Assembly (NCBI GenBank): GCA_015067525.1
Contig: SVMH01000008.1
Location: 1-62,092 of the forward strand
Length of the DNA stretch: 62,092 nt
Direction: 5' to 3'
Source of the DNA: Oscillospiraceae bacterium
GTDB lineage: Bacteria > Bacillota > Clostridia > Oscillospirales > Oscillospiraceae
Shown here in pieces: positions 17,642 through 33,952 of the stretch. The notes beneath the pieces are model-generated. The model ran no database searches, was not told the origin of the DNA, and saw only the letters and a program-made list of their open reading frames with translations. How positions within the stretch are numbered: position 1 is the first letter of the stretch; every line of letters starts with the position of its first letter. Both the position numbers and the translations under genes were made by a program.

Positions 17642-18769
17642 TTATTCGTCCAGTAATTTTTCTGTCAGCCGGCGGTCAAGCTGCACACTGCCGTAGAGAT
17701 TCTTGGCGCTGCAGCCAGCCCGACCGCCGCCGGCACAGGCGCAGGCACAGGCACAGGCGCAGCTGGAGGCGCAGGCGCAATGTCCGCCGCCGCCGAAACC
17801 GCCGCCGCCAAAGCCGCCGCCTCGGCTGCCGCCGCCAAAGCCGCCGCGGCTGCCGCCGCTGCTGCGGGGCGGAGAGGGTTTTTTCACCGTGCCCACGCTG
17901 CCGGGACGGGGTCTGCCGTCGCGGCCGGCGGGATACCAAAGGCCGTGAACAAACACGTAGCGGGTGCCAAAGCCGCCGCCGTAGCTGTTGGCGGAGGAAG
18001 CGGCACTGACGATGATGGAGATCACCACCACCGTGAAGATGACGAAGAACAGCATGGCAAGGATGTCATCGCCGGAGTTGTCATATTCGTAGTCGGGATA
18101 GTAATACTCGTCCTCCGGCAGATTTTCGGCGCTGTTCTCCCAGAAAAGCTCCGTGGGCCAGGAATCGTACTTCGCCACCACCCGCAGCTGCGCTCCGTGT
18201 CCCAGATCGCGTCCCTCGTGGACGGGGAAACCGTTCTGGGCGGTGTAGTCGTTCCACTGGCCGTCGGAGGGCGCGGCGGAGAAATCCACCGCCGGCAGAT
18301 TCGCCGGTGCGTTCCACAGCAGCGTCATGCACTGGATGCGGGCCTCGTCAAACCAGCCGGGGGTATAGTCGTACACCACGCCGCCGCTGCCGTCCAGCGT
18401 GTACATATATTCCTGCGTCCATGCGTAGGAGAATTGGAAGACCTCGCCGTCGTCGTAGCCGCGGTCGAAGTAGACGTACATAAAGCTGTTGTCAAAGTCC
18501 AGCGAGTCGATGTTGTCCGTCAGGGCCTCCAAATCCCGGATGCTGCCGTTGGGGATGCCGATCTGCAGCCATTCCACCGGCCCCTGATCCAGCACCTCCC
18601 ACTCAAAGTCCACACGGATGCGCAGGCTGCCGTCCTCGGCGCTGGGGGTGACGGTCACATCGTACTGCCGGATGAGATCCAGATCGCCGGCGTAGGCGGT
18701 GTCGGCCAGCGCAAAGGACAGGCACAGGCAAAGAGCCAGAGCGGCCAGAAGCGAAAGAAGCTTTTTCAT
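17642..18769 (-). CDS. Membrane-anchored protein with Gly-rich, Cys-Ala-repeat C-terminal tail (putative radical SAM substrate)
   Basis: 375 residues, family not recognised with certainty. A signal peptide (MKKLLSLLAALALCLCLSFA, cleavage near ADTAYA) is followed by a ~200-residue beta-type domain beginning LDLIRQYDVTVTPSAEDGSLRI, rather like DUF2207 N-termini; then one transmembrane helix (about 238-262). After it come an Arg/Pro linker (SPPRSSGGSRGG), Gly-Phe repeats (GGGFGGGGFGGGG), and HCACASSCACACACACA with GGGRAGC: eight Cys in about 25 residues, all but one alternating with Ala. The last ~22 residues (SAKNLYGSVQLDRRLTEKLL) are charged. By topology the tail would face the cytoplasm if the signal peptide is cleaved. 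It starts 1 bp after the radical SAM stop, with AAGGAGGT inside that gene, so the two are translationally coupled. Confidence 0.75.
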   Translation of the reverse strand: MKKLLSLLAALALCLCLSFALADTAYAGDLDLIRQYDVTVTPSAEDGSLRIRVDFEWEVLDQGPVEWLQIGIPNGSIRDLEALTDNIDSLDFDNSFMYVYFDRGYDDGEVFQFSYAWTQEYMYTLDGSGGVVYDYTPGWFDEARIQCMTLLWNAPANLPAVDFSAAPSDGQWNDYTAQNGFPVHEGRDLGHGAQLRVVAKYDSWPTELFWENSAENLPEDEYYYPDYEYDNSGDDILAMLFFVIFTVVVISIIVSAASSANSYGGGFGTRYVFVHGLWYPAGRDGRPRPGSVGTVKKPSPPRSSGGSRGGFGGGSRGGGFGGGGFGGGGHCACASSCACACACACAGGGRAGCSAKNLYGSVQLDRRLTEKLLDE

Positions 18770-18770
18770 C

Positions 18771-20153
18771 TCACTGCACCTCCTTGTTGCCGGTGCGCAG
18801 CTGACAGACGTGCTCCGTCTTGGCGCTCTCGGCGCGGATGGCGCGGCAATCTTCGCTGTCCCAGATGCTCTGCCAGTCGTCGCGCAGGATGTGGCCCAGC
18901 GTCACGCCGCCCAGCCAGCTCTGACAGGGCACCACAGCGCCGTCGGGCGCAACGGCCATGTTGGAAAGGCAGGCGCCGCAGCTGGGGATCAGTTGGAGAC
19001 CCAGCGAACGCAGGGTGGCTTCGTCCAGCCAGCCGGGGCTGGTGAAGTCCAGCTCCATGCCCAGACCCACCGCTGTGGCGGTGGCGTCGCGGAGGATCTC
19101 CGTCAATTCCTCGGCGCTCAGCGCCGTGGCGCGGCTGTCCTCGCCCAGTGCATCGCCGGAGGGGATGAGGCCGGAGCAGGTGGCGTAGCGCACGCCCAGC
19201 GAGTGGGCCAGACGCAGCGTGGCGGCATAGTTGCGGTTCAAGGAGCACAGCGGCGTGTTGATGGAAACGATCAGCCCTGCCTCCACCGCGTTGCGGATGC
19301 CGCGCAGCGTGTCATCAAAGCCGGGAGCACCCACCAGCGTGTTGTGGGTCGTGTCATCGGCGGCGTACAGCGTCACCTGCACGCTGTCCAGACTGGCTTC
19401 GTAGAGGGATTGACACAGCTCCGCCGTCAGCAGCCGGCCGTTGGTGTTCAGGCGGGTGACAAACCACTCCGCCTCGCGTACCAGCTCCACCAGATCGTCG
19501 CGCAGCGTGGGCTCGCCGCCGGTAAAGGTGACTTGCGGGATGTTGGCCGCGCGCAGCTTCTGCAGCACGGTTTTCCACTCCTCGGTGGAGAGCTCTGCCG
19601 TCTCGCCCATGGGCTGTCCGGCGGCATAACAGTGCAGGCACTTCTGGTTGCAGTGCCAGCAGCCGTTTTTGGTCATGGCGCTGACCATCAGATCCACGCG
19701 GTGGGGCGCCGTCATGTGGGCAGCGTACTGGCCCAGCGTCAGGGACTCCACCTCCACCTCCGGCTCGCGGCCCCGGGCGATGGCGATGAGGGAGTCCAGC
19801 ATCACGCCCAGATCCTCGTGCAGACGCTTGCGTGCCGTCAGGGGATAGACCTGCTGCGTGGCGGATACGGCCTGCGCGGTGATGGCCTCCCAGTCGCTCT
19901 CAGCGATCTCGCGGCCGCTGAAGGGTTCCAGCGCGTCCATGAAATTGCTGAGTAAAATCGCCCACGACAGGTTCAGCGGCACCAGATGGGCGCCGTTCAG
20001 CAGCAGTAAAAAGGGCTCGTCCGCCGTGTCCGGACGCGGCGGGATCAGGTGCATGCGCACCACGCCGGGGCCGTAGGGGTCCAGCGTGATGTGGCGCACA
20101 CAGGACAAATGCTTCTGGCGGAAGGCCTGCTCCCGCCGGGTCATTTTTTTCAT
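18771..20153 (-). CDS. Radical SAM/SPASM-type enzyme, probable maturase of the downstream Cys-tail protein
   Basis: 460 residues. The radical SAM cluster motif is CNQKCLHC (CxxxCxxC, about residue 160), followed by VTFTGGEPTLRDDLVEL (glycine-rich SAM motif) and NTNGRLLT. The C-terminal third has SPASM-like cysteines: SCGACLSNMAVAPDGAVVPCQSW, then DCRAI and HVCQL, suggesting auxiliary iron-sulfur clusters as in peptide-modifying radical SAM enzymes. An N-terminal extension of ~140 residues without obvious motif could bind substrate. ATG 20153 has AGGAGG 8 bp upstream. It heads a two-gene operon with the Cys-Ala-tail protein, which suggests cross-linking (for example thioether formation) of that tail; this is inference from context. 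Confidence 0.82.
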   Translation of the reverse strand: MKKMTRREQAFRQKHLSCVRHITLDPYGPGVVRMHLIPPRPDTADEPFLLLLNGAHLVPLNLSWAILLSNFMDALEPFSGREIAESDWEAITAQAVSATQQVYPLTARKRLHEDLGVMLDSLIAIARGREPEVEVESLTLGQYAAHMTAPHRVDLMVSAMTKNGCWHCNQKCLHCYAAGQPMGETAELSTEEWKTVLQKLRAANIPQVTFTGGEPTLRDDLVELVREAEWFVTRLNTNGRLLTAELCQSLYEASLDSVQVTLYAADDTTHNTLVGAPGFDDTLRGIRNAVEAGLIVSINTPLCSLNRNYAATLRLAHSLGVRYATCSGLIPSGDALGEDSRATALSAEELTEILRDATATAVGLGMELDFTSPGWLDEATLRSLGLQLIPSCGACLSNMAVAPDGAVVPCQSWLGGVTLGHILRDDWQSIWDSEDCRAIRAESAKTEHVCQLRTGNKEVQ

Positions 20154-20183
20154 GGGCCACCTCCTGTGGGATAAGTTGGGTAT

Positions 20184-20212
20184 AGTATAGCATCCGCATG
20201 CGGGAAAATCAA
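20184..20212 (-). promoter_or_regulatory. Promoter of the radical SAM operon, with palindrome in the spacer
   Basis: On the complement: TTGATT, 17 bp, TATACT. The spacer holds the palindrome CCGCATGCGG (20194-20203), a possible repressor or MerR-like site. Confidence 0.7.
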
Positions 20213-20400
20213 TGCGGGGCGATTTGGACAAAGTGTAAAAAAGGAGCCGCCCTGCCAAGCAGAGCGGCCCAAGCGGGTGGGATATTGGAAAGCTTCCGAT
20301 ATGTATGATAAACCATTTCGTTTTCCTTGTAAATAGGAGGTTTTGCCGCAAAACCGCGACTTTTGCCGAAGGGAGGCGAAGGGGATGAAAAATGCGGACA

Positions 20401-21133: not shown

Positions 21134-22408
21134 TTACGCCTCAAACCGGCTCTTGTCGATCCACAGACCCAGCGCGGGGTTGGGGATAAAGTAGATCTCC
21201 TCGCCGTCGGGCATGGTGTTGTAGCCGTAAGCCAGCTTCTCCGGATCGTAGCGGCGCGCCATCTCGTCGTAGTCGGCGGCGGCGAAGCCCACGCCCTCCA
21301 CCTCTTCGCGGGAGATGTTCTTCACCGCGTAGGTGATGGTGAACCGTCCGTCAGAAGAGCCGTGGATCAGATGGGCGGCGGCGCCCATGTTCTGCTGCAG
21401 GTCTTCGTTTTCCTTGAAATCCTGCAGGATCTGCAGGCGGCCGCGATAGCCGTACTTGCGGATGAGCCCATCGATGGTCTCGTCTTCGCCGAAACGCTCG
21501 ATGCCGGGGGCCAGCACCAGCAGCTCGCCGCCGTCGGCGATGGCCATGCGGGTGCGGTAGACGGACTTGTTGCCCAGCCACGTGGTGTGGAACTCCTTGG
21601 GGTCAAGGTAGACCACGCACTTTTTGATGCCGCGCTCCACATAGTCCATGTTCTTTACCTGGGCCAGCGCCACAGCCTCTTCCAGCACGCGGCGGGTATC
21701 GCCGATGAACAAACCGTGGGTGCGGATGTTGCCGCCGGGCGCGGTGGTCACGGTCAGGGCAAAGATGATGGGACGTTCGCCCAGATAGGTGTTCAGGGCG
21801 TAGTCCAGGATCTTGCGCACGGGGGTGTGGTCGCGGCCCATCATGCGTTCCATGCCGTACACGGCGCCCACCATGTGGCTCTTGTTGATCATGTCGCTGC
21901 CGCCCACGCCCACGAACAGGTTCTTGGAGTGGTTGGCCATACCGATGACCTCGTGAGGCACCACCTGACCCACAGAGATGATCAGGTCATAGCTGGGATC
22001 CATCACACGGCGGTTGATCTCCACGCTCACCGGCTCCGTCCACAGCCCCTCGGTGATCTGACTGACAAAGTCGGCGGGCACCTCACCCAGCCGTACCACG
22101 TCGGTGCGCCAGTTGTGAGGGATAAACTTCTCGAAGGGGATGTCACCGAACATGTCGGCTGCCTCAGCCTCCGTCACGGGCACGTGGGTGCCCAGCGCCG
22201 GGATCAGGTCTACCTCACAGCCCATGTCGCGCAGCAGATGGTAGTACACGTTGGTGATGAAACCGGCGTTGGAGTGATAGCGGGTGTAGTCGGGGGGCAG
22301 CAGCAGCGCCTTGCGGGGCTGCTTACCCTCCAAAGACCGGATCAGGGCAGCGCGGATCTCCTCCGCGCTGAGACCCTGCTCCGTCTGAGCATGATAGAAA
22401 AGCTCCAT
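21134..22408 (-). CDS. LarA-family (nickel-pincer) hydroxyacid epimerase; probable D-mannonate/D-gluconate 2-epimerase
   Basis: 424 residues, lactate-racemase (LarA, DUF2088) family. Family landmarks: DYTRYHSNAGF (the DxTR motif), ALGTHVPVTEAE (catalytic-loop His), VGQVVPHEVIGMANHSKNLF (the second His and the Lys that carries the pincer cofactor) and NKSHMVG. LarA enzymes racemise or epimerise at C2 of 2-hydroxy acids. D-mannonate and D-gluconate are C2 epimers, and the operon supplies mannonate upstream and 6-phosphogluconate dehydrogenase downstream, so mannonate-to-gluconate epimerisation is the most economical role (inference). RBS AAGGAG precedes ATG 22408. The cofactor genes larB, larC and larE are not in this window and must be sought elsewhere. 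An altronate C2 epimerase is the main alternative. Confidence 0.8.
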   Translation of the reverse strand: MELFYHAQTEQGLSAEEIRAALIRSLEGKQPRKALLLPPDYTRYHSNAGFITNVYYHLLRDMGCEVDLIPALGTHVPVTEAEAADMFGDIPFEKFIPHNWRTDVVRLGEVPADFVSQITEGLWTEPVSVEINRRVMDPSYDLIISVGQVVPHEVIGMANHSKNLFVGVGGSDMINKSHMVGAVYGMERMMGRDHTPVRKILDYALNTYLGERPIIFALTVTTAPGGNIRTHGLFIGDTRRVLEEAVALAQVKNMDYVERGIKKCVVYLDPKEFHTTWLGNKSVYRTRMAIADGGELLVLAPGIERFGEDETIDGLIRKYGYRGRLQILQDFKENEDLQQNMGAAAHLIHGSSDGRFTITYAVKNISREEVEGVGFAAADYDEMARRYDPEKLAYGYNTMPDGEEIYFIPNPALGLWIDKSRFEA

Positions 22409-22423
22409 CCTGCGCTCCTTCCC

Positions 22424-23875
22424 TTAGGCGTTGTAGGTGGAGGAGTGGGTGCTGCCGCCCTTGCCGGTCCAGTTGGTGTGGAACACCTGACCGCGGGGGC
22501 AGTCGATGCGCTCGTAGGTGTGGGCGCCGAAGTAGTCGCGCTGGGCCTGCAGCAAGTTCGCGGGCAGGCACTCGGTGGTGTAGCCGTCAAAATAGTTCAG
22601 GGCGGAGGAGAAAGCAGGCATGGGGATACCCACCTTCACAGCGTAGGAGATGACCTCGCGCCATGCGGGCACCAGCTCCTCGATGACGTTGGCGAAGTAA
22701 TCGTCCATCAGCAGGTTCTCCAGCTGGGGGTTCTTGTCAAAGGCGTCCTTGATCTTGCCCAGGAACACGCTGCGGATGATGCAGCCGCCGCGCCACATCA
22801 GAGCCAGACCGCCGAAATTCAGGTTCCAGCCATGGGTCTGCGCGGCGGAGCGCATCACGGCGTAGCCCTGTGCGTAGGAGATGATCTTGGAGGCATACAG
22901 CGCCTTGCGGATGCACTCGATGAAGGCTTCCTTGTCGCCCTCGAAAGCGGGGATGGCGCGGGGGAAGCGGCGGGCGGCCTTGACGCGCTCGTTCTTCACG
23001 GCGCTCAGGCAGCGGGAGAACACGGCCTCACCGATCAGGGTCAGGGACACGCCCTCGTCCAGAGCGGAGATGACAGTCCACTTGCCCATGCCCTTCTGGC
23101 CGGCAGCGTCCAGAATGTAGTCCACGGTGGTCTCGCCCTTTTCATCCTTGTAGCCCAGGATGTCGCGGGTGATCTCGATGAGGTAGCTGTCCAGCTCGGT
23201 CTCGTTCCATGCGGCGAAGACCTTGTGCATCTCCTCGGCGGACATGCCCAGACCGTCGCGCATCAGCTGATAGGCCTCGCAGATCAGCTGCATGTCGCCG
23301 TACTCGATGCCGTTGTGCACCATCTTCACGAAGTGGCCGGCGCCGTTCTCGCCCACCCAGTCGCAGCAGGGATCGCCGTTTTCCACCTTGGCGCAGATGC
23401 TCTGGAAGATGGGCTTGACAAAGGGCCATGCAGCGGGGGAACCGCCGGGCATCAGGGAGGGGCCGTTCAGGGCGCCCTCTTCGCCGCCGGAGACGCCGCA
23501 GCCCACAAACAGCAGGCCTTTGCTTTCCACATAGGCGGTGCGGCGCATGGTGTCGGGGAAGTGGCTGTTGCCGCCGTCGATGATGATGTCGCCTTCCTCC
23601 AGCACGCCCAGCAGCTGCTCAATGAGAGCGTCCACGGCGGCGCCGGCCTTGACCATCATCATGACCTTGCGGGGCTTTTCCAGATTGGCGGCCAGCTCCT
23701 CGAGGGAGTAGGTTCCGATAATGTTCTTACCCTTGGCGCGGCCTTCCACAAAGTTGGTGACCTTGTCGCCGGTGCGGTTGTAAACGGCCACGGTGAAGCC
23801 CTTGGACTCCATGTTCATGACCAGGTTTTCACCCATAACTGCCAGGCCAATGAGGCCGATATCTGCCTTTTTCAT
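22424..23875 (-). CDS. gnd: 6-phosphogluconate dehydrogenase (decarboxylating)
   Basis: 483 residues, full length. It oxidises 6-phosphogluconate to ribulose 5-phosphate and CO2. The Rossmann start is GLIGLAVMGENLVMNMESKG, followed by AVYNRT, the pattern usual for NADP-dependent forms. Catalytic segments are intact: GVSGGEEGALNGPSLMPGG and NGAGHFVKMVHNGIEYGDMQ, with the catalytic Lys in HFVKMVHNGIEY. ATG 23875 follows AAGGAG. Its place between a sugar-acid kinase and a LarA-like epimerase within a uronate operon is unusual and indicates that 6-phosphogluconate is produced by this pathway rather than only by the oxidative pentose pathway. Confidence 0.95.
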   Translation of the reverse strand: MKKADIGLIGLAVMGENLVMNMESKGFTVAVYNRTGDKVTNFVEGRAKGKNIIGTYSLEELAANLEKPRKVMMMVKAGAAVDALIEQLLGVLEEGDIIIDGGNSHFPDTMRRTAYVESKGLLFVGCGVSGGEEGALNGPSLMPGGSPAAWPFVKPIFQSICAKVENGDPCCDWVGENGAGHFVKMVHNGIEYGDMQLICEAYQLMRDGLGMSAEEMHKVFAAWNETELDSYLIEITRDILGYKDEKGETTVDYILDAAGQKGMGKWTVISALDEGVSLTLIGEAVFSRCLSAVKNERVKAARRFPRAIPAFEGDKEAFIECIRKALYASKIISYAQGYAVMRSAAQTHGWNLNFGGLALMWRGGCIIRSVFLGKIKDAFDKNPQLENLLMDDYFANVIEELVPAWREVISYAVKVGIPMPAFSSALNYFDGYTTECLPANLLQAQRDYFGAHTYERIDCPRGQVFHTNWTGKGGSTHSSTYNA

Positions 23876-23908
23876 CGCAATATTCTCCTTATTCGTCAAT
23901 ATGGGGGG

Positions 23909-24967
23909 TTAGCGCTTCACGCGGGCGTTGCCGCTCCAAACGGCCCAGACCTGCTCTTCGTCGGCAGGCTGTGCGTAGTCGTTGAGCATGGTGGCAGCCA
24001 TCACGCCAGTGGCCCAGCCGAAGTGCAGGCAGTCCTCGGCCTTCCAGTTCTTCAAAATGCCGTACAGCAGACCGCCCACGAAGCCGTCGCCGCCGCCGAT
24101 GCGGTCCATGACCTGAATGGGACGGGGCTCAGCCACGTGCCATTCACCGTCGCGCAGCAGGATGGCGCCCCACAGGTGCTCGTTGGCGTTGATGACCTGA
24201 CGCAGGGTGGTGGCGAAGGTGGTGGCGTTGGGATACTGCTCCTGCACCCGCAGGATCATCTCCTTGAAGGACTCGATCTTGCCGCTCAGATCCTTGCCGC
24301 CGGCCTCGGGGCCCTTGACCTTCAGGCACAGCTGGAAGTCCTCTTCGTTGCCGATCAGGATGTCGGACAGGGAAGCGATCTCATGGAAAGCGGCGTGCAG
24401 CTCCTCCTCACGGCCTTTCCAGAAGGAGGCGCGGTGGTTCAGGTCGAAGGAGATCTTGGTGCCGTAGGCCTTGGCGGCGCGGGCCAGCTCCACGCAGAAG
24501 CGGCTGGTCTCGGGGCTCAGGGCGGCGATCAGACCGCTCAGATGCAGGATCTCCACGCCCTCTTCACCGAAGATGCGCTGGAGGTCGAAGTCCTCCACCT
24601 TCAGCGTGCGGCCCACCTCACCGGCGCGGTCGTTCTGCACGCGGGGACCGCGCAGACCGAAACCGGAATCGGCGATGTTGAACTGGTGACGGTAGCCCCA
24701 GGGATCGCCCTGAGGAACTTCCTTGCCCTCATACTCCATGCCGCGGCTGCGCAGGTCGTTCTTGATGAACTGGGCAATGGGGGAACCCTCCACGAAGGTG
24801 GTCAGCACCTTGACGGGCAGACCCAGGGAGGAAGAAACGGTGGCCACATTGGTCTCGGCGCTGGTGGCCTGCATGTAGAACTCGTGGCTGATGTGGACGG
24901 GCTGGCGGTTGATGGGGGTGATACGGACGCCCATGCTGGTGGGCACCACAAGTGCGTAGCGTTTCAT
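23909..24967 (-). CDS. PfkB-family sugar/sugar-acid kinase (gluconate or 2-keto-3-deoxygluconate kinase)
   Basis: 352 residues. The ribokinase-type fold is shown by ETNVATVSSSLGLPVKVLT near the N-terminus, FDLNHRASFW, NEEDFQLCL and the active-site DRIGGGDGFVGGLLYG with the GxGD catalytic Asp. It resembles 2-keto-3-deoxygluconate kinases, which is what a classic uronate locus would carry. However, no mannonate dehydratase or KDPG aldolase accompanies it, while gnd does, so phosphorylation of gluconate at O6 is an equally good proposal. RBS AAAAGGAG precedes ATG 24967. Gaps of 24-33 bp to its neighbours place it firmly in the operon. Confidence 0.82.
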   Translation of the reverse strand: MKRYALVVPTSMGVRITPINRQPVHISHEFYMQATSAETNVATVSSSLGLPVKVLTTFVEGSPIAQFIKNDLRSRGMEYEGKEVPQGDPWGYRHQFNIADSGFGLRGPRVQNDRAGEVGRTLKVEDFDLQRIFGEEGVEILHLSGLIAALSPETSRFCVELARAAKAYGTKISFDLNHRASFWKGREEELHAAFHEIASLSDILIGNEEDFQLCLKVKGPEAGGKDLSGKIESFKEMILRVQEQYPNATTFATTLRQVINANEHLWGAILLRDGEWHVAEPRPIQVMDRIGGGDGFVGGLLYGILKNWKAEDCLHFGWATGVMAATMLNDYAQPADEEQVWAVWSGNARVKR

Positions 24968-24991
24968 CTGTTGTTCTCCTTTTTGTTCCTT

Positions 24992-26413
24992 TTATTTGAT
25001 AAATTTGTCAAATCCAAAGTAATTGCGGGTGTTGCGGTAGCTGATGTTCTCCACGATGCTGCCCAGCAGCTCCAGATCCCGCGGATACTCGCCCTCTTCG
25101 GCCATGGTGCCCAGCAGATTGCACAGGATCCGGCGGAAGTATTCGTGGCGGGTGTAGCTGAGGAAGCTGCGGCTGTCGGTCAGCATGCCCACAAAGGTGC
25201 CGGCCACGCCCATGCTCATCAGATCCGTGAGCTGCTGCTCCATGCCCTTTTTGTGGTCGTTGAACCACCAAGCGCTGCCCATCTGCAGGCGGCCGGGCAC
25301 GGGGGCGTTGGTCTGGAAGGAGCCCATCACCGTGGCGATGACGGCGTTGTCCGTGGGGTTGAGGGAGTAGAGGATGGTGCGGGGCAGGGCGTCGTCCCGC
25401 TCCAGCAGATCCAGCAGGCGGGAGAGCACCGGTGCGGTGAACCCCTCGTCGTTGATGGTGTCGTAGCCGGTGTCGGGACCCAGCTTTTCAAACATGGTGG
25501 ACGAGGCGTTGCGCACGCAGCCGAAGTGCAGCTGCATGGCCCAATCCCGCTCCTTGTAGGCGCGGGCGCAGGTGCGCAGCAGCGCCGTCTGGAAGGCCTC
25601 GCTCTCCTGAGCGGAGATGGCCTCGCCGGCCCGGCCCTTTTTCAGGATCATGTTCAGCACCTCTTCCGAGGCGGTGCGGCACACGATCTTGTCCAGACCG
25701 TGGTCGGCCACACGGCAGCCAACGCTGTGGAAGAAGGCGATGCGCTGCAAAAGCGCCTGCCGCAGATCGTCCACCGTGCCGATAGTCATGCCGGCGGCCT
25801 TTTCCAGCTTCTCCAGATAGGCGCCGAAGTCCGGCTTGTCCGGCCGCAGAGCCTTGTCGGGGCGGAAGGTGGGCAGTACGGCGCTGGGGCAAGCGGCGTC
25901 GGCGGCGATGGCCATGTGATGGCGCAGATCGTCCACCGGATCATCCGTGGTGCAGATCAGCTGTACGTTGCTCTTTTCCATCAGACCCCGGGCGGACATG
26001 TCACTGCGCGCCAGCATGGCGTTGCACTTGGCGTAGACCTCGTCGGCATTCTTGGCGCTGAGGGGCTCGTGGATATCAAAATAGCGCTGCAGCTCCAGAT
26101 GCGTCCAGTGGTACAGCGGGTTGCCGATGAGCTGAGGCACCGTGGCCGCCCATGCGTGGAACTTTTCTTCGTCGGATGCGTCGCCTGTCACGCACCGCTC
26201 CGGTACCCCGTTGGCGCGCATGACGCGCCACTTGTAGTGGTCACCGCCCAGCCACACCTGCGTAATGGTGGGAAAATGCCGGTCTTCGGCGATCTCCGCC
26301 GGGTTGATGTGGCAGTGATAATCGATGATCGGCATGCGTGCGGCGTGCTGGTGATAGAGCGTGCGGGCCGTGTCAGTTTTCAGCAGGAAATCCTTGTCCA
26401 TAAACGGCTTCAT
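24992..26413 (-). CDS. uxaC: Uronate isomerase
   Basis: 473 residues, amidohydrolase superfamily. It converts D-glucuronate to D-fructuronate and D-galacturonate to D-tagaturonate. Family landmarks: IIDYHCHINPAEIAED (metal-binding HxH), the N-terminal MDKDFLLKTDTARTLYH, LICTTDDPVDDLRHH, and HFGCVRNAS; the C-terminal GTFVGMLTDSRSFLSYTRHEYFRR is typical (quoted in part by the family). ATG 26413 lies just after GAGGTGAAG; the GTG at 26422 sits in that ribosome site. First gene of the four-gene operon. Confidence 0.95.
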   Translation of the reverse strand: MKPFMDKDFLLKTDTARTLYHQHAARMPIIDYHCHINPAEIAEDRHFPTITQVWLGGDHYKWRVMRANGVPERCVTGDASDEEKFHAWAATVPQLIGNPLYHWTHLELQRYFDIHEPLSAKNADEVYAKCNAMLARSDMSARGLMEKSNVQLICTTDDPVDDLRHHMAIAADAACPSAVLPTFRPDKALRPDKPDFGAYLEKLEKAAGMTIGTVDDLRQALLQRIAFFHSVGCRVADHGLDKIVCRTASEEVLNMILKKGRAGEAISAQESEAFQTALLRTCARAYKERDWAMQLHFGCVRNASSTMFEKLGPDTGYDTINDEGFTAPVLSRLLDLLERDDALPRTILYSLNPTDNAVIATVMGSFQTNAPVPGRLQMGSAWWFNDHKKGMEQQLTDLMSMGVAGTFVGMLTDSRSFLSYTRHEYFRRILCNLLGTMAEEGEYPRDLELLGSIVENISYRNTRNYFGFDKFIK

Positions 26414-26473
26414 GTGCTTCACCTCGTATTGATTTTGGGTGGTTTGCGGGCATTTGCCCCCATTCTTGAGGTC

Positions 26474-26494
26474 AGTATATCACTGGTATATCAC
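26474..26494. promoter_or_regulatory. Candidate GntR/FCD (UxuR-like) operator
   Basis: TATATCAC occurs twice (26476-26483 and 26487-26494), 11 bp apart. The second lies in TGGTATATCA (26484-26493), one base from the palindrome TGGTATACCA of the E. coli UxuR/ExuR box. It would block the uxaC promoter. Confidence 0.6.
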
Positions 26495-26502
26495 AAATGC
26501 AA
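26474..26502 (-). promoter_or_regulatory. Promoter of the uxaC operon
   Basis: On the complement: TTGCAT, 17 bp, TATACT. The spacer and -10 are overlaid by the operator-like repeats at 26474-26494. Confidence 0.7.
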
Positions 26503-26560
26503 TAATATTTTCAAAAAAACCTGCAAAGCCTTGCAAATAAAGGAAAATTTTGAAATACAA

Positions 26561-26602
26561 GTGATATATTTTCTTGACATGGCGCAGGGGTTGGTATACT
26601 CT
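26561..26602 (+). promoter_or_regulatory. Promoter and second operator of the oxidoreductase-gntR operon
   Basis: TTGACA (26574-26579) and TATACT (26595-26600) with a short 15-bp spacer. TTGGTATACT (26591-26600) matches half of the UxuR-type palindrome exactly over the -10, and GTGATATA (26561-26568) is the inverse of the TATATCAC repeats near the divergent promoter. Confidence 0.6.
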
Positions 26603-26636
26603 GTAAGCAAGAAGAAAAACAAGGAGGACGTTCATT

Positions 26637-28253
26637 ATGAAGCTTTCCCACGCATCCATCGCGGAAAACCGCGCCCTGTTTGAGGGCAAGGGCTATCAGA
26701 TGCCCGCCTTTGACCGTGACGCCATGATGGCCGCCACGGCGGATCATCCCACCTGGGTCCACTTCGGCGCCGGCAACATCTTCCGCGGTTTTCTGGCTCC
26801 GCTGGCCCAGCAGCTGCTGGACGAGGGCGTCACCGACACCGGCATTGTGGTGGCTGTGGGCTTTGACTCCTCCCTGCTGGATGCCGTGTACCGCCCCTAT
26901 GACAACCTGACCGTGGTGGCCACCCTGTGCTCCGACGGAGAGATCCGCAAAAAGGTGGTGGCCAGCATCGCCGACAGCATCTGCATGGTGGACGGCGGCG
27001 AGGAATGGGAAAAGGTGTGCCGTGCCTTCCGCAATCCCTCGCTGCAGATGGCAAGCCTGACCATCACCGAAAAGGGCTATAACTACCTCGCCTCTGACGG
27101 CAGCATCCTGCCTGCTGTGGCCAAGGATATGGAAGCCGGTCCGCAGGGTGCTGTGGGCTATCTGGGCCGCATTGCCGCCCTGTGCCACGAGCGCTATACC
27201 GCCTGCGGCGCGCCCATCGCACTGGTGAGCATGGACAACTGCTCCCACAACGGCTCCCGTCTGGAGGCCGCCGTGCTGGCCATCGCCGAGGGCTGGCTGC
27301 AGCGCGGTCTGTGTGAGGAGGGCTTCCTTGTCTGGCTGCGCGACCGCAGCAAGATCACCTTCCCCTGGAGCATGATCGACAAGATCACTCCCCGCCCCGA
27401 CGAGTCCGTGAAGGACATGCTGGAAGCCGACGGCCTGGAGGGCATGGACCTCCATGTGACCCGTCACGGCTCCTATGCCGCCGCCTTCGTCAACACCGAA
27501 GAGGCGGAGTATCTGGTCATCGAGGATAAGTTCCCCAACGGCCGCCCCGCGCTGGAGCGCACCGGCGTCATCTTTACCGATGGCGAGACGGTGGATATGG
27601 TGGAGACCATGAAGGTCTGCACCTGCCTCAATCCCCTGCACACCGCCATGTCCGTGGTGGGCTGCCTGCTGGGCTTCACCCGCATCAATGCGGAGATGAA
27701 GGATGAGGACCTGCGTGCGCTGGTGGAGCGTGTGGGCTATGTGGAAGGCCTACCCGTGGTGGTGGATCCCGGTGTTATCGACCCCAAGGCCTTCATCGAC
27801 GAGGTCATTTTGAAGCGCTTCCCCAACCCCTTCCTGCAGGATGATCCCCGCCGCATCGCCACCGATACGTCCCAGAAGATCCCCGTCCGCTTCGGCGGTA
27901 CCATCCGCAAATATGCCCAGCGCGAGGATCTGGACGTGCGCGATCTGAAGTGCATCGCCTTTGTGCTGGCCGCGTGGTGCCGCTACCTCATGGGCATCGA
28001 CGATGCAGGCAACGCCTTCACCCCCAGCGATGACCCTATGCTGCCGGAGCTGATGGCCCAGATGGCCCACGTGAAGCTGGGCGAGGCCTGCGATGTCCAC
28101 GCCACACTGCAGCCCATCCTCTCCAACGCCGCCATTATGGGCAGTGATCTCTATGAAGTGGGTCTTGCCGAGCTGGTGGAGGAGAACTTTGCCCGCATCA
28201 TCGAAGGCCCCGGCGCTGTGCGCCGCGTGCTGCACGAGCTGGTGGAGATCTGA
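26637..28253 (+). CDS. uxuB: Mannitol dehydrogenase-family oxidoreductase; probable fructuronate reductase (mannonate oxidoreductase)
   Basis: 538 residues, long-chain polyol dehydrogenase family. Expected reaction: D-fructuronate + NADH to D-mannonate (or tagaturonate to altronate). The nucleotide-binding start is THPTW-type WVHFGAGNIFRGF, and the catalytic Lys/Asn/His set is seen in MKVCTCLNPLHTAMSV. The sequence FPWSMIDKITPRPD is also typical. Assignment to uxuB rather than uxaB rests on length and context and is not certain; the enzyme may take both substrates. ATG 26637 follows AAGGAGG. Transcribed divergently from uxaC, with the regulator next. Confidence 0.85.
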   Translation: MKLSHASIAENRALFEGKGYQMPAFDRDAMMAATADHPTWVHFGAGNIFRGFLAPLAQQLLDEGVTDTGIVVAVGFDSSLLDAVYRPYDNLTVVATLCSDGEIRKKVVASIADSICMVDGGEEWEKVCRAFRNPSLQMASLTITEKGYNYLASDGSILPAVAKDMEAGPQGAVGYLGRIAALCHERYTACGAPIALVSMDNCSHNGSRLEAAVLAIAEGWLQRGLCEEGFLVWLRDRSKITFPWSMIDKITPRPDESVKDMLEADGLEGMDLHVTRHGSYAAAFVNTEEAEYLVIEDKFPNGRPALERTGVIFTDGETVDMVETMKVCTCLNPLHTAMSVVGCLLGFTRINAEMKDEDLRALVERVGYVEGLPVVVDPGVIDPKAFIDEVILKRFPNPFLQDDPRRIATDTSQKIPVRFGGTIRKYAQREDLDVRDLKCIAFVLAAWCRYLMGIDDAGNAFTPSDDPMLPELMAQMAHVKLGEACDVHATLQPILSNAAIMGSDLYEVGLAELVEENFARIIEGPGAVRRVLHELVEI

Positions 28254-28264
28254 GGAGAAGTGCC

Positions 28265-28960
28265 ATGACCCATGTAGCCATTCCCCCCAAAGAGCCGGGT
28301 GAGAGCGGACGCCAGTTCGCCTACCGCGTGCTCTACAACGCCATTATGACGCTGCAGCTGCCGCCCAGCTGGGTGCTCAGTGACAGTGAGCTGAGTCAGG
28401 CGCTGCAGATCAGCCGCACCCCCATCCGCGAGGCCATCGTCTCGCTGCAGGAGGCCAAGTTGGTGGAAGTCTTCCCCCAGCGGGCCAGCATCGTTTCCCG
28501 TATCGATCTGGACGCCATTGAAGAGGGTGTGTTCCTGCGCTATCACACCGAGTGCGCCATCTTCCGCGAGGCGGTGCGCAAAGCCGACGGCGCTGCTGTG
28601 GGCCGTCTGCGCGCCAACCTGCTGGAGCAGGAGCGGCGGCTGCAAAGCGGCGATGTGCTGGGCTATTTCCAGTTGGACAACGCCTTCCACAAGGAGCTCT
28701 ATCTCATCGCCGGCAAGCCCTGGGTCTGGTCCACCGTGGCCCGCATCGTCACCCACCATGACCGGGTGCGCCTGCTGCAGGCCCAGTTGGGTGCCGAACA
28801 GCTGTGGCCCGCCCACCGGGAGCACTGGGAGATGCTGGACATCATCATGCAGCGCAGCGAAAAGAACATGGACGAATTTTTCCATGACCACCTGACTGCC
28901 GGTTATCGCAGCGCCCTGCCGGAGCTGATCCGCCGCTTCCCTGAATACTTTGTACTGTAA
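28265..28960 (+). CDS. GntR-family regulator, FCD type (UxuR/ExuR-like)
   Basis: 231 residues. An N-terminal winged helix-turn-helix (about 15-80: FAYRVLYNAIMTLQLPP, LSDSELSQALQISRTPIREAI) is followed by an all-helical FCD ligand domain with the metal-binding Asp/His pattern (DNAFHKELYLIAG, VTHHDR, HREHWEMLD). FCD regulators commonly respond to sugar acids. Cotranscribed with the oxidoreductase gene and next to two divergent promoters carrying TATATCAC/TGGTATA-type sites, so it most probably represses the uronate locus until a uronate or aldonate binds. Confidence 0.88.
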   Translation: MTHVAIPPKEPGESGRQFAYRVLYNAIMTLQLPPSWVLSDSELSQALQISRTPIREAIVSLQEAKLVEVFPQRASIVSRIDLDAIEEGVFLRYHTECAIFREAVRKADGAAVGRLRANLLEQERRLQSGDVLGYFQLDNAFHKELYLIAGKPWVWSTVARIVTHHDRVRLLQAQLGAEQLWPAHREHWEMLDIIMQRSEKNMDEFFHDHLTAGYRSALPELIRRFPEYFVL

Positions 28961-28999: not shown

Positions 29000-31900
29000 T
29001 TAGATATCCAGAATTTCCAGATCGGAGGCGTTCACTTTGCGCAGGTCCTTGCGGGCCACGATGTCGTACATGCACGGCACTACCAGCAAGGTCATCAGCG
29101 TGGCATAGGTCAAGCCACCGATGCATACCAGAGCCACCGGCTGCATCAGCGCCGTGCCGGCGTTCTTGGCAAAGGCCATGACCACAAGGCCCAGGATGGT
29201 GGTGATGGAGGTCATCAGAATGGGGCGCAGACGGGTGATGCCGGCCTCAATGATGGCCTCGCGGCGTTCCATGCCCTCCAGACGCAGCTGGTTGATGTAG
29301 TCCACCAGCACGATACCGTTGTTGACGATGATGCCCACCAGCATCACAAAGCCGATGAGGGAGATGACGCTCACTTCAATGCCGGCGATCAGCAGCGCCA
29401 GGAAGCCGCCGGTGAAGGCCAGGGGGATAGTGAACATGACGATGAAGGGAGAGCTGAGGGACTGGAACTGGGCCACCATGATGAAGTACACCAGTACGAT
29501 GCCCAGCAGCAGCATCAGCAAAAGCTGCTGCATGGCTTCCATGATCATCTCGTTCTCACCGGTAAAGCTGATCTTCACGCCTTCCGGCAGCGTGACGCCG
29601 GCCACAGCCTTCTCCACCTCGGCAGAAACCTTGGTCACGTTGTAGCCCTCGGCAATGGCGGCAGAAACGGTGACGTAGCGGCGCTGCTCGCTGTGGCTAA
29701 TGCTGTTGAGGCTCACCGTCTCTTCAATGGTGGCTACCTCGGAGAGCTTGAAGCTCTCAGTAGCAGCGGAAGCGGCAGAAGAGGTGGCACTGCCCATCAT
29801 GCTGCCCATGGAGGCCGACGAGCCGCCCATCATGGACGACATGCCGGAAGAGCCCGTGGAACTCATGGAACCCATGGAAGCGGAGGAGGACGCGGTGATC
29901 TCCAGCGCCATCAGCTTCTCGCGGGTCATGCGGGCCTCCTCGGCGCTTTCGATGGTCACGCCCACGTCCATGCCGTCCAGCGTCATGTCGGCGGCGGTGG
30001 TGGAATCCACCAGCGCTGCAGCCACCTGCATATAGATCTGAGCCACGGTCATGCCCTTTTGCATGGCGGCATTGCGGTCAATGGACACATGGATGGCCTC
30101 CACTGCGTCCTCCAGACCGTCGGACACCTTGGCAGTGCCTTCTACCTTTTCGATCTGGGCGGCCAGATCACGGGCGGCGCGCTGCAGAAGCTCCATATCC
30201 TCACCGTAGACCTGCAGTGATACGCCGCTGCCGGTCATCATGGTGGTCATGCTGTCCATGGCGCCGGCGGCGGATACAGTGCACTTCATGTCGGCGCACA
30301 GCTCCTCGATGGCCTTGCCGGCGGCGGCGCCGGATTCGCCTTCCGGCAGCGTCACGTAGGCGGTCACGGTGTAAGCGCCGCCTCCGCCGCCCATCATGCT
30401 GGTTACGTCGCTGCCACCCATGGTGGCGCCCACGGTCTCCACGTGCTCCACCGTGGCGGCGCGGCGCAGCACCTCATCGGCCAGCTCCACCGCTTCTTCC
30501 CGCTCGATGCCCTCAGGCATGGTGATGGTCACGTTGATCATGTTCATGTCCATGCTGGGCATAAAGGTGAAGCCGCGGCCCAGTGCCAGACCGGCAGAGC
30601 CCAGCAGCAGCGCCAGCGCCAGAAGCAAGACAATGGCCTTGTGGCCCAGGGACCAGGAGACTGCCTTGCGGTAGGCGGGATAGATCTTATCCAGAATGCC
30701 CGGCTTCTGGGGCTTTTCCTTGCGCAGCATGCCGGATGCCATGGCGGGCACCAGCGTCAGCGCCACGATGAGACTGGCCATGAGGGAATAGGTCATGGTC
30801 AGTGCCAGATCGGTAAACAGCTGTCGGGTCAGACCCTCCACAAAAACAATGGGGGCAAATACGCACACCGTAGTCAGCGTGGAGGAGGTGATGGCGCCCA
30901 TCACCTGCTGCGCGCCGGAAACGGCGGCCTGCGTTACGGTGGCACCCTTGCTGCGCAGGCGGTAGATGTTTTCGATGACCACCACCGAGTTATCCACCAG
31001 CATACCTACCGACACGGCAAGACCGCTCAGGGAGATCATGTTGATGGTCACGCCGGAGAAGTACATCAGCACGATGGCGAACACCAGCGAAATGGGGATG
31101 GCGCACAGGGTAATGATGGTGGGTCGGATATCCCGCAGGAACAGCCACAGAATGATGACCGAGAACAGGATGCCCCAGCCCAGGCTGGACAGGATCTCCT
31201 CGATGATCATGAAGATGTAGTAACCCTGATCCATCAGGGCCACAAATTCCAGACCCTCGTATTCAGCCTCCAGCTCGTCAAAGCGCTCCTGAATGTTTTC
31301 GGAAACCTCCGCCGTGGCGTAGGTGGACTGCTTGGTAAAGGTGGCGATCACGCCGTTTTCGCCATTGAGCTTGGCGTAGATGTCGGTGGAGTTGTCGGTG
31401 ATAAAGACGTCCGCCACGTCCTTCAGGCGGATGGGCTCCATACCCTTCAGACCCAGATCAAAGAGGATCATGTCCTCCAGAGAATCCTGGGTTTCGATAC
31501 TGTCGCCCACGCTCACCATATACTGCACGCCCTCTTCGGTGATGTAGCCGGCGGGCATGGAGAAGTTCTGGGCCGTCAGCAGGGCGGAGATGGTGTTGAT
31601 ATTCAGCGCGCCGCTCATGTCAGCCTGATTCAGGGCGCCTTCGCGGGAGCTCTCCAGCGTGGCCAGACCCTGCTCAATCTGGGTCAGGGCGCTGTCCAGC
31701 TGAACGTTGGCCGAGAGCAGCTGCGTCACACCCTCTGCCAGCGTCATCACGCCGGAAGAGATCTGGTCGGCGATGTCGGCAATGCCGTCCTCATTTTCCA
31801 GCTTGCCCAGCTGGTCTTCTACCTTATCCAGTTCTTCCTGCCACTGCTGCAGCTTCTCGCCCATGTTCTCCCATGTGGCGTTCAGCGCGGCCAGGCGCAG

Positions 31901-32878
31901 CTCCAGAGCGGCCAGCTCGGCCTGCACCTGCAGGTATTCGGGGTCATTTTCAATGGCGGCGATCTTCTCCGCCTTTTCCTCCTCCGTCAGATTTTCGTCC
32001 TGGCGGATGGTCTCCATCTGGTAGTGGTATTCGGCGTTTTTGGCATCCAGCTGTGCCTTTTCGCGCTGGATGGCACCCAGCTCGCTGATGTTGCTTTGCA
32101 GGTTCTCCTGACTCTGCCGCAGGGCTTCCAGCGTCTGCTGCACGGAGATCAGCGCCTGCTCGGCCGCGCCGCGCAGGGCGGCTTCCGAACCGTCGCGGAT
32201 GGCGTTCTTGGCACTCTGGAGCTGCCAGCGGGTATTGTAAAGCTGCTTGGCGGCGTCGTCCAGCTGGGCCTCAATGGCCTCGGCCAGTTTCTTGCTCAGT
32301 TCATCCAGCTTCTCCTGGTTCAGCAGCACGTGCAGCTGCCGCTCCACCGTGCCGGTGATGTCCACGCTGGCCACGCCGCTGATACCGTTGAGCTTGTCAG
32401 TCAGCGTGTCCTCTACAAATTCGGACATTTCGTAAACGTCCTTGCCTTCATAGCCGATGGCAGCCACCTGTACCGGCAGCATGGAGGGGTTGATCTTCAG
32501 CACGTAGGGGGTACCGATGGTGTCGTCCCAGGAGCCCTGCAGCGCGGAGATCTTCTGCTGGATGTCCACGCTGATGCTGTCCATATTGACGCTGTCTTCA
32601 AACTCCAGCGCCACCATGGACACGCTGTTCTGGGAGGTGGAGGTGACGGACTTGATCTCGTCCAGCGTGGCCATGGACTGCTCCATAGGCCGCGTCACAT
32701 CCGTCTCCACCGCCTCGGGACTGGCACCGGGATCGGTGGTCACAATGATGACATAGGGGAAGTTCATGTTGGGCAGCAGGTCCGGCGTCATCTTCAGATA
32801 GGCCACCACGCCCAGAATGATCACGGCCAGAACGGCCACAAAAACGGTCAGCGGTTTTTTGACGCTGAATTTCGGCAT
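29000..32878 (-). CDS. RND-family efflux transporter with large coiled-coil insertion
   Basis: 1292 residues, AcrB/SwrC-type proton-driven transporter in the cytoplasmic membrane. RND landmarks: MPKFSVKKPLTVFVAVLAV, LLPNMNFPYVIIVT, TDVTRPMEQ, the TM block WGILFSVIILWLFLRDIRPT, SGLAVSVGMLVDNSVVVIENI (TM4 with the proton-relay Asp) and GIIVNNGIVLVDYINQLR. Usual length is near 1040. The extra ~225 residues lie at about 200-425, inside the porter domain just before INTISALLTAQNFSMPAGYI, and are a Leu/Gln/Glu-rich coiled coil (LDELSKKLAEAIEAQLDD, EELDKVEDQLGKLENED). A second oddity is a Ser/Met/Gly low-complexity segment near residue 1040. RBS AAGGAG precedes ATG 32878. No membrane-fusion partner gene is adjacent. 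Substrate unknown. Confidence 0.88.
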   Translation of the reverse strand: MPKFSVKKPLTVFVAVLAVIILGVVAYLKMTPDLLPNMNFPYVIIVTTDPGASPEAVETDVTRPMEQSMATLDEIKSVTSTSQNSVSMVALEFEDSVNMDSISVDIQQKISALQGSWDDTIGTPYVLKINPSMLPVQVAAIGYEGKDVYEMSEFVEDTLTDKLNGISGVASVDITGTVERQLHVLLNQEKLDELSKKLAEAIEAQLDDAAKQLYNTRWQLQSAKNAIRDGSEAALRGAAEQALISVQQTLEALRQSQENLQSNISELGAIQREKAQLDAKNAEYHYQMETIRQDENLTEEEKAEKIAAIENDPEYLQVQAELAALELRLAALNATWENMGEKLQQWQEELDKVEDQLGKLENEDGIADIADQISSGVMTLAEGVTQLLSANVQLDSALTQIEQGLATLESSREGALNQADMSGALNINTISALLTAQNFSMPAGYITEEGVQYMVSVGDSIETQDSLEDMILFDLGLKGMEPIRLKDVADVFITDNSTDIYAKLNGENGVIATFTKQSTYATAEVSENIQERFDELEAEYEGLEFVALMDQGYYIFMIIEEILSSLGWGILFSVIILWLFLRDIRPTIITLCAIPISLVFAIVLMYFSGVTINMISLSGLAVSVGMLVDNSVVVIENIYRLRSKGATVTQAAVSGAQQVMGAITSSTLTTVCVFAPIVFVEGLTRQLFTDLALTMTYSLMASLIVALTLVPAMASGMLRKEKPQKPGILDKIYPAYRKAVSWSLGHKAIVLLLALALLLGSAGLALGRGFTFMPSMDMNMINVTITMPEGIEREEAVELADEVLRRAATVEHVETVGATMGGSDVTSMMGGGGGAYTVTAYVTLPEGESGAAAGKAIEELCADMKCTVSAAGAMDSMTTMMTGSGVSLQVYGEDMELLQRAARDLAAQIEKVEGTAKVSDGLEDAVEAIHVSIDRNAAMQKGMTVAQIYMQVAAALVDSTTAADMTLDGMDVGVTIESAEEARMTREKLMALEITASSSASMGSMSSTGSSGMSSMMGGSSASMGSMMGSATSSAASAATESFKLSEVATIEETVSLNSISHSEQRRYVTVSAAIAEGYNVTKVSAEVEKAVAGVTLPEGVKISFTGENEMIMEAMQQLLLMLLLGIVLVYFIMVAQFQSLSSPFIVMFTIPLAFTGGFLALLIAGIEVSVISLIGFVMLVGIIVNNGIVLVDYINQLRLEGMERREAIIEAGITRLRPILMTSITTILGLVVMAFAKNAGTALMQPVALVCIGGLTYATLMTLLVVPCMYDIVARKDLRKVNASDLEILDI

Positions 32879-32992: not shown

Positions 32993-33033
32993 AAAAAAAC
33001 ACCGGACCGCCTGTCGGCGATCCGGTGTTTTTT
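32993..33033 (-). terminator. Terminator of the GntR/UTRA gene
   Basis: AAAACACCGGA / TCCGGTGTTTT arms around a CGCC/GGCG inner stem; it begins at the stop codon of the complement-strand regulator. Confidence 0.88.
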
Positions 33034-33808
33034 AGTCGATGGTGCGCACGAAGGTCATGCCGCCCTTTTGCATGTGCACATCCAGCCGTACCCGGTCACC
33101 CCGGATATAGCTGCGGGTGTACTCGTAGATGCGGCCGTCTTCCGTCTTGGTGCGGCGCTGGTGGAAAAAGGCACAGCTGCCGCTTTCCACACCCAGAAGC
33201 CGGGACTGATGCGCGTCCAGCACAACGGCCTCATAGCTGTCGTCCGCCGAGAAGGGGACGATGCCTACGTGGTACAGCAGGCTGTAGAAGCTGTGGGTCT
33301 GCACCATTTCCCGCGTCAGGTTGGGGAAGATGTACTGAGGATAGTAGGAGGTCTCCAGGATCAGAGGCTGACCGTCCACGTTGCGGATGCGAGTGAAGCA
33401 GTACACGCTGGTGCCTTCCTTCAGCTCCATCTTCTGGCAGATGGCGGCTGCGGGTACGATCACGTCAAAGTCCACCAGTGTGGAGGAGGGCACCTTGCCC
33501 ATGGAGGAGACCTCCGTGGTGAAGGAGTAGCGCACGCCGCGGCGGTTGGTGGCAGGGTCAGCCACAAAGGTGCCCTTACCCCGCTTGCGGACCACCAGAC
33601 CTTCATCCTCCAGCTCGCCGATGGCCTGACGGACCGTGTTGCGGCTCACGTTCAGCGCGCGGCACAGCTCCGCCTCCGAGGGCAGCAGAGCGCCCACGGC
33701 CAGAGCGCCGGAGGAGATATGGCGCTTGATGATGCCGACCAGCTGGGTATACAGCGGGATATCACTGTTGAGCGACAGCTTGTCGGCCAGAATCGGACTC
33801 AGTTCCAT
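33032..33808 (-). CDS. GntR-family regulator, HutC/UTRA type
   Basis: 258 residues. N-terminal winged HTH (about 10-75): PLYTQLVGIIKRHISSGAL, LPSEAELCRALNVSRNTVRQAI, VVRKRGKGTFVA. The C-terminal UTRA effector domain follows, with CFTRIRNVDGQPLILETSYY and the closing YTRSYIRGDRVRLDVHMQ (family patterns). ATG 33808 is preceded by AAAGGAA about 12 bp upstream; the frame extends further but without a better ribosome site. Regulators of this type usually sense sugar phosphates or amino-acid metabolites. Which gene it controls cannot be told: it stands alone between the RND gene and gap. Confidence 0.87.
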   Translation of the reverse strand: MELSPILADKLSLNSDIPLYTQLVGIIKRHISSGALAVGALLPSEAELCRALNVSRNTVRQAIGELEDEGLVVRKRGKGTFVADPATNRRGVRYSFTTEVSSMGKVPSSTLVDFDVIVPAAAICQKMELKEGTSVYCFTRIRNVDGQPLILETSYYPQYIFPNLTREMVQTHSFYSLLYHVGIVPFSADDSYEAVVLDAHQSRLLGVESGSCAFFHQRRTKTEDGRIYEYTRSYIRGDRVRLDVHMQKGGMTFVRTID

Positions 33809-33952
33809 AAAAGTAGGATTCCTTTCCCCGCGGAAGATCCCGCCGTTGCGGCAGAAAGCCGAAAAACGGGAGGCCCGGGGCAAATTTTCGAAAAACTGTT
33901 AAGGACAGGGGGAAAAATCGGCGCCGAAAAAGGTCGGCACCTGATTTCGGAA

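Follow-up and report, generated by a model that had tools for sequence, protein, structure and literature searches.

In Thermotoga maritima, a hexuronate route has been proposed in which mannonate is epimerised to gluconate and then processed by gluconokinase and decarboxylating 6-phosphogluconate dehydrogenase, Gnd (Rodionova et al. 2012, according to PMC6978723 and PMC7583248), and the corresponding operon reads aldH-pelB-gnd-uxaRED-gntEK (PMC3750489). In Lactobacillus suebicus, mannonate kinase and 6-phosphomannonate 2-epimerase activities were described, with the genes for both steps left unidentified (PMC6978723). D-Gluconate 2-epimerases of the LarA family have been measured for LarAH19/GntE1 and LarAH20/GntE2 (activity shown in 2020; PMC7583248) and for LarAH15 (PMC11770544). 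In this study, we closely examined a six-gene hexuronate locus with a LarA-family epimerase of group 18 in a stretch of 62,092 nucleotides (here called the window; all coordinates refer to it unless a locus is named), which is contig SVMH01000008.1 of assembly GCA_015067525.1 from an Oscillospiraceae bacterium (genome G000; 1.97 Mb, 85% complete). Gene families were assigned by searches with Pfam and NCBIfam models.

Like T. maritima, the window holds gnd and a LarA-family epimerase together with a sugar kinase and a reductase in one hexuronate cluster, and the same route is proposed for both. The two differ in the epimerase, which belongs to group 20 in T. maritima, in the kinase, which is gluconokinase GntK there and a PfkB-family protein here, and in the additional branch through 2-keto-3-deoxy-6-phosphogluconate (KDPG), kdgAK-uxuBA, of T. 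maritima. GntK is presumably a member of the FGGY family. With L. suebicus the locus shares UxaC, a reductase, the conversion of mannonate to 6-phosphogluconate and Gnd; in L. suebicus, a phosphoketolase acts downstream and the kinase candidates are gluconate-kinase-like, not PfkB. The first two steps are also those of the classical UxaC-UxuB-UxuA-KdgK-KdgA pathway, whereas here no UxuA was found and the dehydration of mannonate would give way to its epimerisation at C2 and its phosphorylation. The route as such is already in print, for T. maritima and, with the kinase acting first, for L. suebicus; new are a likely role for group 18, a putative hexonate kinase of the PfkB type and an anomaly in the cofactor genes. 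No description of this cluster was found in the open-access literature searched, the subscription literature lying mostly outside that search.

We consider it highly probable that the locus is a hexuronate catabolic operon that leads mannonate through 6-phosphogluconate to ribulose 5-phosphate and replaces the UxuA-KdgK-KdgA branch. UxaC would convert glucuronate to fructuronate, and the divergently encoded reductase would convert fructuronate to D-mannonate. The LarA-type enzyme would then invert C2 and the PfkB kinase phosphorylate C6, in either order, to give 6-phosphogluconate, from which Gnd would form ribulose 5-phosphate and CO2 with a yield of NADPH. We infer the substrate of every step, and likewise the ligand of the regulator. 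One NAD(P)H is consumed in the reduction of fructuronate and one NADPH is recovered at Gnd, so that the path to ribulose 5-phosphate would be redox neutral, as the related L. suebicus route is described to be (PMC6978723). An earlier reading made from the sequence alone (the sequence-only reading) had proposed this route with gluconate as intermediate and NADPH as a gain, and had pointed to gluconate 2-epimerases among LarA proteins. All six genes and both divergent units were indeed present, such epimerases have been measured (PMC7583248, PMC11770544), and the passage from hexuronate to 6-phosphogluconate is well supported by gene context and co-occurrence. The sequence of epimerase and then kinase is unproven, and the NADPH that Gnd returns amounts to an exchange of carriers with no net reducing power.

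Co-occurrence and gene neighbourhood of the epimerase

Within the family to which the window belongs, 120 genomes were analysed for the distribution of the relevant genes. The epimerase was detected in 14 of these at E 1e-20, each from a different genus; 13 matches were over the cut-off and one, in G031, is a fragment. Gnd was found in 15 genomes. Both occurred together in 13 genomes, the epimerase only in one, Gnd only in two and neither in 104 (Fisher p=1.65e-14; these tests treat related genomes as independent, and their p-values serve as a guide only). One of the two Gnd-only genomes is the sole genome with glucose-6-phosphate dehydrogenase (G6PDH), and the other has a 33-position fragment. 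The single epimerase genome lacking Gnd, G046, carries UxuA and KDPG aldolase. Since G6PDH was detected in just 1 of the 120 genomes, Gnd appears to work without a feed from glucose 6-phosphate, and a hexonate is the most likely source of its 6-phosphogluconate.

In G031, which is 98% complete, the epimerase fragment (G031:C27:26941-27351; L027:9421-9852) is about 145 residues long. Gnd of this genome lies on another contig (L124), where the adjacent genes read like those for a 2-hydroxyacid dehydrogenase and for sugar ABC transport.

The neighbourhood is conserved as well. Among 13 further loci of the same family, in which tblastn was used to place genes up to about 2 kb away from the epimerase, Gnd was found in 10, PfkB in nine and UxaC in five. 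A D-mannonate oxidoreductase of the short-chain dehydrogenase/reductase (SDR) family was whole in seven of them and cut by a contig end in one; the query was taken from one of these loci, and two of the SDR proteins exceeded the NF006132 cut-off of 281 bits, with scores of 445.8 and 427.1. The epimerase of locus L015 is divergent from PfkB and Gnd. In a wider scan of genome contigs, at least 577 relatives of the epimerase were confirmed, and the best 80 loci, at least three of which are on the same contigs as family loci, were analysed. These 80 span Clostridia, other Bacillota, Bacilli, Spirochaetes, Kiritimatiellae, Victivallales and Verrucomicrobia. Gnd was present in 58/80 loci, PfkB in 42/80, always with Gnd, and UxaC in 23/80. 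An SDR reductase was found in 28 loci and a mannitol-dehydrogenase-type reductase in 11, with no locus containing both. Given Gnd near the epimerase in 10/13 and 58/80 loci, the operon is more than a chance arrangement.

Some loci without PfkB carry other kinases near Gnd, namely an FGGY kinase in L061 and PFK-type kinases in L114 and L118, and UxaE (572.6 bits) lies beside the epimerase in L053. The PFK-type kinases (L118:655-2855 and L114:7533-8846; 372.4 and 378.4 bits against NF010675, cut-off 273), the former followed by a HAD-type hydrolase and both also close to the epimerase, are possibly a third kinase family for the phosphorylation step.

The epimerase scored 625.6 bits (cut-off 500) against NF052594, the model named "nickel-dependent putative hexonate epimerase" for LarA group 18. 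Its nearest solved structure is T. maritima 4nar, both by sequence (E 1.5e-29) and by predicted fold (template modelling score 0.81; mean predicted local distance difference test of the model 87.9); the model informs on the fold only, with pocket geometry and phosphate site unreadable from it. We take 4nar as GntE2 because the GntE2 residue numbers R41, K164 and H180 (PMC7583248) agree with it. On the 4nar alignment, D40, R43, H75, H152, K162, H178 and K281 of the epimerase match D72, R75, H108, H174, K184, H200 and K298 of LarA, three of these equivalences being numbered for GntE2 in PMC7583248 and the other four being our own reading. None of these seven cofactor and catalytic residues varies, either among the 13 sequences from the window and 12 family loci (13/13) or in a wider set of epimerases (92/92). 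The wider set consists of the window and 91 loci in which 380 or more residues could be aligned, with three or more contigs counted twice. Of the three features described for the pocket of groups 18 to 20 (PMC7583248), the two compared, an E153-V154 loop and W277, were both present and invariant. The enzyme thus shares the fold, the catalytic and cofactor residues and part of this pocket signature with LarAH19, LarAH20 and LarAH15, and differs from them in belonging to group 18, with an NCBIfam model of its own. A hexonate substrate is supposed for group 18 in PMC7583248. From the present locus, group 18 gains a likely role as hexonate epimerase, with gene context and pocket signature supporting a putative mannonate/gluconate exchange.

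Neither the kinase nor the reductase reached the cut-off of any NCBIfam model that it matched (14 in the case of the kinase), so that no substrate can be read from a model name for either enzyme. For the reductase, the scores were 133.5 bits for D-arabinitol dehydrogenase, 125.6 for fructuronate reductase and 111.5 for tagaturonate reductase. The kinase fell outside the models for 2-keto-3-deoxygluconate (KDG) kinases (NF052444, 28.1 bits with a cut-off of 400; NF041332, 96.2 and 440; NF040938, 42.8 and 400). Fifty aligned PfkB proteins of such loci share a motif with near-invariant W90, G91, R93, H94, Q95, F96, N97, N112, D113 and R114, which was compared by eye with one KDG kinase, T. maritima 2afb. 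KDG kinases phosphorylate C6, and a switch of a PfkB protein to gluconate or mannonate is therefore plausible. The PfkB-type enzyme is a candidate hexonate or mannonate kinase, new for such routes.

Alternatives to the proposed route

Several findings weigh against the proposed route. No Gnd was present in the available stretch of 22/80 loci, many of them cut by contig ends, and it was also missing from L072, L085, L096 and L104 despite about 10 kb on both sides; from these four, viewed by eye, we conclude that group 18 also occurs in other settings. No measured substrate for group 18 was seen in the available parts of PMC7583248 and PMC11770544. The best solved relative of the PfkB kinase (2afb, 8e-30) and its best named relatives are KDG kinases. 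Across the 120 genomes, in which UxuA was found in 18 over cut-off (20 at E 0.001) and KDPG aldolase in 32 (33 at E 0.001), the epimerase was not significantly anti-correlated with either UxuA (1/14 vs 17/106, p=0.69) or KDPG aldolase (3/14 vs 29/106, p=0.76). Furthermore, none of LarB, LarC and LarE was found over cut-off in the 85%-complete G000, where they would be expected in the host of an enzyme that depends on the nickel-pincer nucleotide cofactor.

On the other side, UxuA, the mannonate dehydratase of the classical pathway, had no match in G000. The sequence-only reading had noted the absence of this enzyme and of KDPG aldolase; both are missing from the locus, and the genome-wide search that it called for extends the finding to UxuA, while KDPG aldolase has one match elsewhere (G000:C27). 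Neither the epimerase nor Gnd is present in the genus mate G036, which carries UxuA and KDPG aldolase, indicating that either route can take the place of the other among members of one genus. At the aldolase locus of G000 (L123:6326-8012), the aldolase is followed by a gene that reads by eye like a KDG kinase, in a genome in which no UxuA was found to supply KDG.

The strongest alternative concerns only the order of the two central steps and leaves the net route unchanged. PfkB would phosphorylate mannonate at C6 and the LarA-type enzyme would then epimerise 6-phosphomannonate at C2, an order that fits the genes of the operon nearly as well as the reverse. L. suebicus extract made no gluconate from mannonate without ATP and contained a high-affinity mannonate kinase (PMC6978723), and group 18 is distinct from the groups of the measured gluconate epimerases. 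In contrast, groups 19 and 20, with a similar active-site signature, use free D-mannonate (PMC7583248), and the gluconate-kinase-like candidates of L. suebicus offer no parallel to PfkB. We regard action of the kinase first as a serious contender, somewhat short of an even chance.

Less probable, and in our view unlikely, is a different C2 pair as substrate of the LarA-type enzyme, for instance an aldarate or some hexonate besides mannonate, with Gnd being there for another reason. Such a role would accord with the lack of a measured group 18 substrate and with the loci in which Gnd was not seen, and other substrates were weighed for group 19 owing to its high KM (PMC7583248). Among the hexonates of the route, however, mannonate alone has a C2 epimer that leads to the substrate of Gnd, and the SDR D-mannonate oxidoreductase sits in the cluster of relatives. 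The ordinary KDPG route, with PfkB as KDG kinase and uxuA missing through incomplete assembly, is more improbable still: PfkB does resemble KDG kinases and the 85%-complete G000 does have a KDPG aldolase, but UxuA occurs in only one of the 14 epimerase genomes, 11 of them lack both UxuA and KDPG aldolase (seven of these, G005, G007, G008, G038, G061, G082 and G109, being 94-98% complete), the G000 aldolase adjoins another KDG-kinase-like gene, and Gnd would be left without a substrate, given the single G6PDH genome.

Locus layout and adjoining genes

The six genes form two divergent units, the minus-strand unit being compact, with 24 bases between uxaC and the PfkB gene, 9 between the PfkB gene and gnd, and 15 between gnd and the epimerase gene.

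Table 1. Features of the hexuronate locus, with positions in the window
Feature	Position	Strand	Basis
LarA-family C2 epimerase, group 18, 424 amino acids; putatively acting on mannonate/gluconate or their 6-phosphates	21134-22408	-	NF052594
gnd, decarboxylating 6-phosphogluconate dehydrogenase, NADP type by family	22424-23899	-	TIGR00873, 754 bits, cut-off 426.7
PfkB-family kinase, 352 amino acids, proposed hexonate 6-kinase	23909-24967	-	Pfam PfkB, 73.5 bits
Uronate isomerase UxaC	24992-26422	-	Pfam UxaC, 675.3 bits; PRK02925, 630.9 bits, cut-off 387
Divergent intergenic region with candidate operator	26423-26636	.	Repeat search
Mannitol-dehydrogenase-family reductase, 538 amino acids, proposed fructuronate reductase	26637-28253	+	Pfam Mannitol_dh, Mannitol_dh_C
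GntR/FCD transcriptional regulator	28265-28960	+	Pfam GntR, FCD

The intergenic region contains GTATATCAC at 26475-26483 and 26486-26494, with an inverted match at 26561-26568. These repeats may serve as an operator; they are short and may also have arisen by chance.

The operon is adjoined by genes for an AcrB/AcrD/AcrF-family transporter (668.4 bits; 29003-32878, minus strand) and a GntR/UTRA regulator (33032-33883, minus strand). At 17642-18769 (minus strand), a protein of 375 amino acids without a Pfam or NCBIfam match at E 0.001 is encoded, which ends in a cysteine-alanine-rich C-terminal tail, CACASSCACACACACAGGGRAGCS. Directly upstream of it lies a gene for a radical SAM/SPASM protein (18771-20351, minus strand) that stayed below the cut-offs of the 25 best NCBIfam models listed. 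The two are possibly a pair in which the tail is modified.

Cofactor genes and implications

The weak LarB (39.1 bits, cut-off 175) and LarE (32.7 bits, cut-off 150) matches of G000 look like paralogues. T. maritima, on the other hand, has its own LarC over cut-off and is also among the LarB and LarE matches, whose scores relative to the cut-offs are not stated. In the 120-genome sample, LarC was found in 63 genomes, and LarE and LarB were over cut-off in 60 and 59. LarB was always accompanied by LarC (59/59), LarE occurred without LarC in two genomes and LarC without LarB in four. LarC was no commoner with the epimerase (7/14) than without it (56/106). Six of the 14 epimerase genomes (G000, G005, G008, G038, G061 and G073) had none of the three genes, and G057 had LarE only.

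This pattern extends across the order, where the epimerase was found in 34 of 396 genomes (at least 93% completeness; G000 counted), in 32 of them over cut-off. We searched for LarC alone in 37 epimerase genomes at least 93% complete, consisting of 33 order genomes besides G000 and four family genomes already known to lack it. LarC was found in 13 (split in two) and missing in 24, over eight families. It was missing in 20/33 when the four family genomes were left out, and in 22/35 without G139 and G218, which match the epimerase below the family cut-off. For comparison, 13 of 20 epimerase-negative genomes, the first listed and not a random draw, contained LarC. Among 28 genomes with a higher-scoring LarA (Lar_N at least about 150 bits), eight had none of LarB, LarC and LarE, and LarC was enriched (20/28, p=0.03). 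G000 itself encodes a second, lactate-racemase-type LarA in G000:C73 (L121:1480-2757; 610.8 bits against NF033504, cut-off 460).

Three explanations were considered for the missing lar genes. Assembly gaps are unlikely for the group as a whole, given the 24/37 genomes without LarC, and possible for the 85%-complete G000. Decay of the enzyme is unlikely, as family sequences keep all seven residues without exception, whether or not their genomes have lar genes. A peculiarity of group 18 was rejected, since the eight genomes with higher-scoring LarA proteins also lack all three genes and G000 has a lactate-racemase-type LarA.

Because the enzyme and its residues are kept, we read the missing genes as a problem of cofactor supply, with room for another cofactor. 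The sequence-only reading had called the bypass nickel-dependent and had named missing lar genes as evidence against its proposal. G000 gives the nickel dependence no support, LarB, LarC and LarE not having been found although the cofactor-binding residues are kept; the objection is a serious one, and it counts against the nickel dependence but not against the route. The available parts of PMC7583248, PMC11770544, PMC11796402 and PMC12611868 contained no mention of LarA without LarB, LarC and LarE. We see an even chance that many mostly gut-derived anaerobes rely on functional LarA enzymes for a major sugar-acid pathway although they lack the known cofactor genes, be it through uptake of the complete cofactor, or of one of its late precursors, released by neighbouring cells, through synthesis enzymes not yet known, or through a different cofactor in the same site.

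For the proposed hexuronate route, the PfkB kinase is a candidate to fill the step of hexonate or mannonate phosphorylation, to which no gene was assigned in L. suebicus. A lone Gnd is suggested as a marker of a hexuronate route in anaerobes without G6PDH. If the absence of LarB, LarC and LarE is real, the nickel cofactor, so far regarded as a product of every organism that uses it, would instead be shared between organisms or made in another way.

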